DNA of 64,000 bases, from assembly GCA_021801355.1 (NCBI GenBank), contig JAJYYB010000018.1, positions 1 to 64,000 of the forward strand, written 5' to 3'. A program made the position numbers and the translations under genes. The notes below the pieces were generated by a model. That model was not told the DNA's origin, searched no databases, and worked only from the letters and a program-made list of their open reading frames with translations. Shown here in pieces: positions 29,986-39,643 of this stretch; positions within the stretch are counted from its first letter, which is position 1; every line of letters starts with the position of its first letter. This DNA comes from Microcaldota archaeon (GTDB lineage Archaea; Micrarchaeota; Micrarchaeia; Micrarchaeales; Micrarchaeaceae).

Positions 29986-30411
29986 GTGGTACAATTGAGC
30001 GACGAGGAATACATGAAACTGCTTGACAGGGCTTTCGATAGCAAGCCCATAATGGCTGCCAGCACCAGCGACTTCGTCATACCTAACGTAGACGCTTTGG
30101 TGCAGGGCAACAAGACGATAATAAAGAACATAGCCGCGATAGCCGACAAGGCGAGGAGGAAGGCTGACGAGATAGGCAGGTACATGAGCAAGGAGCTCTC
30201 GGTGCCGATAAGCGTCGAGGACCAGAGGCTGATAGTCAACAGCAAGTTCAATGCTCCTGACCTGGACAAGATAATAAAGAGATATTTCAGCACATACGTT
30301 ATATGCAAGGAGTGCAGCAAGCCTGACACGCACCTTGACAGCAGCGGCAGGGGGATGTTCACGCTCGTGTGCGAGGCGTGCGGTGCGCACTATAAGGTAA
30401 AAAGTTACTAA
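29986..30411 (+). CDS. Translation initiation factor aIF2 subunit beta
   Basis: This subunit of the Met-tRNAi carrier has the N-terminal helix MKLLDRAF, KTIIKNIAAIADKARR, SKFNAPDLDKIIKRYFSTYVICKEC in part, and the C4 zinc ribbon CKEC...CEAC. Length (141 aa) is normal. ACATATAAATGG at about 29947 supports a nearly leaderless GTG start at 29986; TTG 29995 is an alternative. aIF1A follows 11 bp after its stop, so two initiation factors share a transcript. Confidence 0.95.
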   Translation: MVQLSDEEYMKLLDRAFDSKPIMAASTSDFVIPNVDALVQGNKTIIKNIAAIADKARRKADEIGRYMSKELSVPISVEDQRLIVNSKFNAPDLDKIIKRYFSTYVICKECSKPDTHLDSSGRGMFTLVCEACGAHYKVKSY

Positions 30412-30422
30412 GGGTTGATTGC

Positions 30423-30752
30423 ATACCGGGATTTGGAAGGAATAGATACAAGAAATTTGACAAGCACGGGCGCGGAGGGCCTACCGAGTACGTATTGAAG
30501 ATGCCGGGGGAGGGCGAGGTGGTCGGGACTGTTACTAAGATAGCTGGCGCCACTAAGTTCATGGTTAATTGCGGCGATGGCAAGGAGCGCCTCTGCATAA
30601 TACCCGGAAGGCTCAGGAGGAGGTTCTGGATAAAGGAGAATGACGTAGTGATTGTGAAGCCGTGGGTGGTGCAGACCGATGAGCGGGGCGACATAGTCTG
30701 GAGGTACAGCATGCTTGACATAGGCAAGCTAAGGGAGAGGCACGTCCTTTAG
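30423..30752 (+). CDS. Translation initiation factor aIF1A, apparent AUA start
   Basis: The S1-like OB core (GEVVGTVTKIAGATKFMVNC, GKERLCIIPGRLRRRFW, DIVWRYSMLDIGKL) is unmistakable. The first standard start in frame is TTG 30495. The 24 codons before it encode a conserved-looking basic tail (PGFGRNRYKKFDKHGRGG) that must be translated. No ATG, GTG or TTG opens it; ATA at 30423 stands exactly where MPGFGRNRYKK would begin. AGGGTTGAT just before could be a weak Shine-Dalgarno site. The gene overlaps the next start by one base. The start is inferred. Confidence 0.85.
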   Translation: MPGFGRNRYKKFDKHGRGGPTEYVLKMPGEGEVVGTVTKIAGATKFMVNCGDGKERLCIIPGRLRRRFWIKENDVVIVKPWVVQTDERGDIVWRYSMLDIGKLRERHVL

Positions 30753-39094: not shown

Positions 39095-39643
39095 TCATTT
39101 TATGCTTGTTATCTTTTTGGATGACAATATTCTTATTATGTAGCCCTTGAGCTCGGCCACGAAGGCTGGCTTGTCGGCCGAGAGCTCCTTCAGCTCCTGC
39201 TCGGTGAACATCTCCTTGTTGTTCAGGACCAGGTACTCGAGGTATTCATCAGTGAGGTAATAGCTCTGCGCCCTGCAGTTCTTGCAGGTATAGAGCGGCA
39301 GGACGGGCAGCATGTCGCTGCTCCTGAACTCCTCGACGTACCTGCGCAGCTCCTTCTTGCCGCAGTTAGGGCATTCCCTGTCGAATGTGACCTCCTTGTA
39401 ATCGGCTTTCGCCACCTCGTCCAGCTGGAGCGACCTTATGAAATCGTCCGATATCTCTCGCAGCAGCTTGCTATCGTGGTCTATGAGCCTCTGCGCCATT
39501 ATGGAGCCATCGGCGTTGAAAGTCACTTCCAGGACCTTCTGCTTCGCCGGCTCCCAGAGCTTAGTTATGGCGCGCCCGCCAGATGAATAGTCAAGCCTTA
39601 TGCGCCCGTCGCTGCTCTCCGACATATAGGCCTTGCCCGTCAC
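39095..39643 (-). CDS. Zinc-ribbon protein of unknown function
   Basis: The 182-residue product has an N-terminal beta-like part (IRLDYSSGGRAITKLWE), a zinc ribbon (CPNCGKKEL ... YTCKNCRAQSYYL) and a helical C terminus. The ribbon resembles that of transcription- or RNA-linked proteins. The family is not recognised. GTG 39643 starts where the histone gene stops; ATG 39625 is an alternative. Confidence 0.65.
   Translation of the reverse strand: MTGKAYMSESSDGRIRLDYSSGGRAITKLWEPAKQKVLEVTFNADGSIMAQRLIDHDSKLLREISDDFIRSLQLDEVAKADYKEVTFDRECPNCGKKELRRYVEEFRSSDMLPVLPLYTCKNCRAQSYYLTDEYLEYLVLNNKEMFTEQELKELSADKPAFVAELKGYIIRILSSKKITSIK

Follow-up and report, generated by a model that had tools for sequence, protein, structure and literature searches.

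A probable AUA start codon for aIF1A in a Micrarchaeota archaeon, with near-cognate starts behind a close Shine-Dalgarno motif in related genomes

Where does translation of an archaeal initiation factor gene begin if none of the standard start codons opens its conserved coding sequence? The question is raised by the gene for aIF1A, the homologue of IF1/eIF1A, in a 64,000-nucleotide stretch of Micrarchaeota DNA (the window). A sequence-only reading of this DNA had claimed that no ATG, GTG or TTG opens the basic N-terminal tail of the protein, that the tail is nonetheless conserved coding sequence, and that ATA stands where the first Met is expected. The features on which the argument turns are the following.

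29986-30411, plus strand: aIF2beta gene with a GTG start, directly upstream of aIF1A (open reading frame; PF01873, E 5.9e-29).
30414-30419, plus strand: Shine-Dalgarno-like GTTGAT, separated from the ATA by 3 nt and identical to GGTGAT in 5 of 6 positions (RNAduplex energy between GAUCACCUC and the 18 nt that precede the ATA, -7.0 kcal/mol).
30423-30425, plus strand: ATA, almost certainly the aIF1A start codon (no in-frame ATG, GTG or TTG upstream; ATA at the same place in the sister species G002 and G004; near-cognate codons in 10 of 89 genomes).
30423-30752, plus strand: aIF1A coding sequence, 109 aa plus stop (PF01176 on residues 31-94; NCBIfam NF003084; PDB aIF1A chains, best 1jt8).
30426-30497, plus strand: basic N-terminal tail of aIF1A (PGFGRNRYKKFDKHGRGGPTEYVL; synonymous excess between sister species).
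30495-30497, plus strand: TTG, first standard start codon in the aIF1A frame (CTG at that codon in G002 and G004).

The product matches PF01176 (eIF-1a domain) with an E value of 2.8e-20 and 72.2 bits, over the cut-off of 30.2, and the NCBIfam model NF003084 (IF-1A) with 105.4 bits, over the cut-off of 91. Family scans returned aIF1A/eIF1A/IF-1 models only, and PF01176 has a single match in the genome to which the window belongs (G000; 21 contigs, 96% complete). The open frame runs from 30396 to 30749, with its stop at 30750-30752, and reads GGT AAA AAG TTA CTA AGG GTT GAT TGC ATA CCG GGA at its beginning. It contains no ATG, GTG or TTG before the TTG at 30495, and the next standard codon is the ATG at 30501; the frame and the coordinates of the sequence-only reading were thus correct, as was its statement on the lack of a standard start. 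Fusion with aIF2beta, or readthrough from it, is ruled out, since the stop codon of that gene (TAA, 30409-30411), which lies 11 nt before the ATA, is out of the aIF1A frame.

Both sister species, whose proteins are 88% (G002) and 87% (G004) identical to that of the window, keep ATA at the same place, which bears out the claim that this codon occupies the position of the initiator Met. There are no standard starts upstream of the ATA in G004, and there is a GTG four codons upstream of it in G002. A sequencing or assembly error might mask an ATG or TTG (through a G at 30425, or a base missing near 30415): a single base change would yield a standard start, and the assemblies are mostly metagenomic. 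We consider such an error extremely unlikely, because the ATA recurs in separate assemblies and ATA or ATT stands in this position in five more genera, while the out-of-frame TTG near the Shine-Dalgarno motif meets a stop two codons later in both sister species. The same stop rules out initiation at the out-of-frame TTG at 30415 followed by a frameshift. From the same codon in two sister species, and ATA or ATT in six genera, we conclude that the aIF1A start is almost certainly AUA and not the product of an error.

Could the ribosome instead begin further downstream, at the TTG at 30495 or the ATG at 30501, leaving the tail unmade? These are the first standard starts in the frame, but the tail behaves as coding sequence. 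Between G002 and G004 it has accumulated 11.2 changes in 17.8 synonymous sites as against 5.8 in 63.2 other sites, and the corresponding figures are 9.0 in 14.5 and 4.0 in 54.5 for G000 and G002, 8 in 19.2 and 1 in 64.8 for G008 and G051, and 12 in 14.2 and 5 in 57.8 for the loci L068 and L027. Substitutions between sister species are therefore mostly synonymous, in line with what had been claimed from the sequence alone, and such strong purifying selection directly after the ATA shows that the tail is translated. Relatives do not lack the tail, and in 58 of the 89 genomes the start column of the alignment is occupied by ATG. Moreover, the first standard codon lies 30 codons into the frame in G015 and is the 47th codon in G023. 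A downstream start is accordingly very improbable.

How widespread the odd start is was judged from a set of 99 genomes, of which 92 (that of the window included) contain aIF1A. The aIF1A protein matched 39 named loci, 37 of them labelled Micrarchaeota, Micrarchaeaceae, Micrarchaeum or Marsarchaeota, one Thermococci and one 'uncultured archaeon'. In the family alignments, taking one locus per genome, ten of 89 genomes (including G000) are without a standard start in the interval that reaches 15 codons before and 5 codons after the aIF1A start column. Eight of these have ATA (G000, G004, G008, G015, G023, G033, G041 and G051) and two have ATT (G018 and G056). The odd codon falls on the column in five cases and is one codon away from it in three; in the other two, G000 and G004, the automatic alignment places it four codons ahead of the column. 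The tail varies in length. Another ATT-started aIF1A was found in G233, among 51 further loci. Six more genomes (G002, G005, G011, G021, G043 and G040) have an upstream GTG or TTG that could be the true start.

The ten genomes all belong to family f1 and are spread over six genera. On a tree of aIF2beta and the aIF1A core, with the tail omitted (a quick build with SH-aLRT support only, in which 33 of 86 inner branches are weak), at least six gains are required to account for the near-cognate start, every one of them in f1, and all 38 members of f2 are without it. The class of codon is common to several species within three genera (g1, g5 and g15): ATA in G000, G002 and G004 and in G008, G033 and G051, and ATT in G018, G056 and G233; the exceptions are G001 (g1), which has ATG, and G040 (g15), which is ambiguous. 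Two genomes are particularly instructive. The ATA of G015 immediately follows a TGA stop, with no ATG, GTG or TTG in the 23 codons inspected, and this, together with the distant first standard codon of G023, means that no better-placed start is available in either. As G023 reads TCG-ATA where the related locus L068 reads TTG-ATA, it is the ATA that stays constant. In a check at class level under a lenient rule, none of 27 loci from outside the order (L260-L286) was found to be without a standard codon; in four of them (L264, L265, L276 and L286) there is none in the stretch read, or one only inside the tail.

What the near-cognate genes share is the sequence immediately before the start. Near the predicted 3' end of 16S rRNA (L181) we found GATCACCTC, which makes GAGGTGATC the Shine-Dalgarno sequence. 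A motif identical to GGTGAT in 5 or 6 of 6 positions precedes the odd codon by exactly 3 nt in all ten near-cognate aIF1A genes (the window having the imperfect GTTGAT), compared with 24 of 2522 anchors placed inside genes and judged by the same rule. Pairing with the anti-Shine-Dalgarno sequence had a median energy of -8.35 in a near-cognate set of ten (the above genes with G002 in place of G041; G015 with only 12 nt upstream), against -4.65 for the 58 ATG-started and -6.0 for the eight TTG-started aIF1A genes; the difference from the ATG-started genes has a p value of 1.4e-5, uncorrected for kinship. In a tally of codons at GGTG-N5, ATA made up 20 of 222 (nine of the 20 being aIF1A), as against 28 of 1187 over ten other spacers summed.

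Within the genome of the window ATA is not generally enriched at this spacing: in a 231,423-base sample (open reading frames of at least 120 codons, aIF1A itself not included), 7 of 124 codons at spacer 3 were ATA, with similar values at several other spacers. The pattern GGTGNTNNNATA occurs 38 times in this genome, and so does its reverse. The lack of an excess indicates that the near-cognate arrangement is rare per genome.

A special initiator tRNA was ruled out, because the initiator-like tRNA (L166) is ordinary, with the anticodon CAT and an A1-U72 pair. It was the only CAT tRNA in the loci of 37 of 42 tRNA matches read by ARAGORN in G000 (L151-L180 and L212-L218); no elongator Met or Ile2 tRNA was identified in this incomplete list, in which L218 gave no tRNA and L170 gave the neighbouring one.

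Taken together, these data make it highly probable that aIF1A starts at the AUA at 30423, read by the ordinary CAU initiator tRNA with the help of a start-proximal Shine-Dalgarno motif, in a manner common to a few genes. We infer that a 30S subunit, probably coming from just-terminated aIF2beta, would be held by the motif exactly 3 nt before the AUA. The initiator tRNA would then decode AUA, tolerating a C:A mismatch at the third codon position, and so place Met as the first residue; most likely, pairing so close to the start offsets the near-cognate codon. The AUA would be expected to cut the output of aIF1A, and to render it sensitive to the strictness of start-codon checking. The same arrangement (GGTGNT, 3 nt, then AUA, AUU or AUC and less often ACG or CUG) appears to serve a limited number of genes within this Micrarchaeota order, and aIF1A would be among those most often affected.

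Genes without a standard start were sought in 42 family alignments of at least six genomes each, after removal of open reading frames that contained N, had fewer than 60 codons or ran off a contig end. The alignments replaced a crude screen that had flagged 111 of 1022 testable genes, many of them through missed starts or wrong frames. No standard start was found for 45 of the 870 family members; 34 of the 45 have a near-cognate codon together with a Shine-Dalgarno motif that matches in 4 or more of 6 positions, and in 29 of these 34 the match reaches 5 or 6 of 6 at spacer 3. The other 11 of the 45, as well as two cases in fam11 and one in fam29, look like misplaced start columns. A few other genes of these archaea have ATA, ATT or ATC (or ACG or CTG) at the same spacing, and in the genome of the window the arrangement extends firmly to one further gene and probably to another.

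One gene of that genome, a 297-aa open reading frame (L232; G000:C13:93601-94491, minus strand), reads GGTGTTGCA-ATA-ACC-GTA. Sixteen loci homologous to it are known in genus g1, and 14 of them have ATG (12) or GTG (2) followed by ACN, L243 and L244 being the remaining two; its product gave no Pfam match and no PDB match. A second gene encodes a putative DNA-binding regulator (L330; G000:C21:108754-108858, minus strand), whose matches to HTH models are all sub-threshold. It reads GGTGGTTCA-ATA-CCT and probably starts at this ATA. Its homologues have ATC in G003 and G002 and ATA in G001, G009 and G065, so that ATA or ATC occupies the place in six of 11 genomes. In five of these six the stretch read contains no standard codon before it, G002 having an ATG ten codons upstream; a GTG lies three codons downstream in G000, G001 and G003.

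A further case in the window concerns a gene that has a standard start here and near-cognate codons in its relatives.

39095-39643, minus strand: gene with a weak Zn-ribbon match and a GTG start (the orthologue starts at ATA in G002 and at ATC in G004, each right after TGA).

The Zn-ribbon match of the G002 orthologue is below its cut-off. Other homologues have ACG right after a stop (G030) or ATG (several genomes).

Another family is fam15, of about 124 aa (L147:10135, with the homologues L148, L110, L125, L126, L138, L143 and L114), in which ATA, ATT or ATC follows GGTGNT. In genus g31 one of these three codons is found in all eight aligned genomes and ATG at that place in none; a GTG precedes the place by three codons in G075, an ATG follows it two codons later in G064, and G079 and G095 are near-identical.

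It may be asked whether such starts serve any regulation at all. Near-cognate codons could be mild mutations that are tolerated under a strong Shine-Dalgarno motif and play no regulatory role, which we regard as a real possibility, though short of probable. This would account for the variety of the codons (ATA, ATT, ATC, ACG and CTG) and their scatter over families, and for the strong motif that accompanies them. It sits less well with the uniformity of fam15 in g31 and with the ATA or ATT that species share within three genera in the case of aIF1A, as under drift a return to ATG would be expected.

The alternative raised by the sequence-only reading is autoregulation resembling that of IF3, a protein family distinct from aIF1A: the infC gene of Escherichia coli starts at AUU, and an odd start might likewise let aIF1A control its own synthesis through the stringency of start-codon selection. 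We consider this conceivable but doubtful. In its favour, aIF1A is itself an initiation factor gene, and its near-cognate start has been gained repeatedly within f1 and is shared by several species of g1, g5 and g15. According to a study of Staphylococcus aureus (PMC13009471), infC (AUA), ccpN (AUA) and cvfC1 (AUU) have extended Shine-Dalgarno motifs there, in the case of infC 'likely enabling auto-regulation', and reporters of cvfC1, ccpN and citZ (AUA) gave about 10% of the AUG output in poor medium. The S. aureus infC thus resembles the present gene in being an initiation factor gene with an AUA start and a strong start-proximal motif, whereas the present gene encodes the IF1/eIF1A homologue, its host is archaeal, and its near-cognate codon varies between and within genera.

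Against autoregulation stands the occurrence of the same arrangement in genes other than those of initiation factors. Furthermore, each of the 30 aIF1 loci read (of 58 matches, with only G008, G023 and G033 from the ten near-cognate aIF1A genomes) offers a standard codon; the conserved place is occupied by ATG in 29 of them, and L307 has CTG there with GTG three codons upstream. The expected sign of the feedback also differs. In yeast, poor start codons are used more readily through the action of the basic N-terminal tail of eIF1A (PMC5756025), so that an archaeal loop acting through the aIF1A tail would be positive, and not negative as with IF3.

A broader proposal, which we put forward tentatively and consider rather unlikely, is that near-cognate genes behind the fixed GGTGNT motif at 3 nt form a regulon that reads the stringency of start selection, with aIF1A acting positively through its tail and aIF1 as the brake. 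In Sulfolobus aIF1 is reported to discriminate against non-canonical starts (PMC6237735). The regulon might comprise aIF1A, the putative DNA-binding regulator, the family of about 124 aa, some aIF2beta genes, the Zn-ribbon-like protein and others.

Eukaryotic eIF1 is autoregulated through a poor AUG context. Like aIF1A it would represent a start-selection factor whose own start is poor by design, but there it is the context and not the codon that is poor, and the factor is eIF1 and not eIF1A. If our reading is true, the recurrent AUA/AUU start of aIF1A would be the third independent case of a poor start on a start-selection factor, besides bacterial infC and eukaryotic eIF1, and on a different factor. 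Sister species with ATG and ATA make a feedback origin of such starts directly testable. Gene callers restricted to ATG, GTG and TTG would be expected to truncate or miss such genes.

Rare near-cognate switches are on record: among 61,358 ancestral AUG codons in 36 bacterial and archaeal groups, two changed to CUG and one to AUU, the word AUA being absent from the main text (PMC5622118), whereas here 10 of 89 aIF1A genes have AUA or AUU. Searches of titles and the beginnings of abstracts in the open-access PMC literature found no archaeal AUA start, and no paper was found there on start codons in Micrarchaeota or Micrarchaeum.

Codons other than ATA were also seen in this survey. Among 88 aIF2beta genes, five are without a standard start (L090, L119, L129, L140 and L087); at the Shine-Dalgarno spacing four of these show CTG and one shows ATA; in L090 (G055) an ACG is also present where the siblings G014 and G037 have ATG. 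In the genome of the window, an open reading frame with an N-terminal region QSSMEYLMTYGW follows GGTGATGTA-ACG (L221:10983, plus strand), and an ACG start is possible there. A gene of G034 (L089), presumably exosome-subunit-like, has GGTGATTTT-ACG with no standard start nearby.
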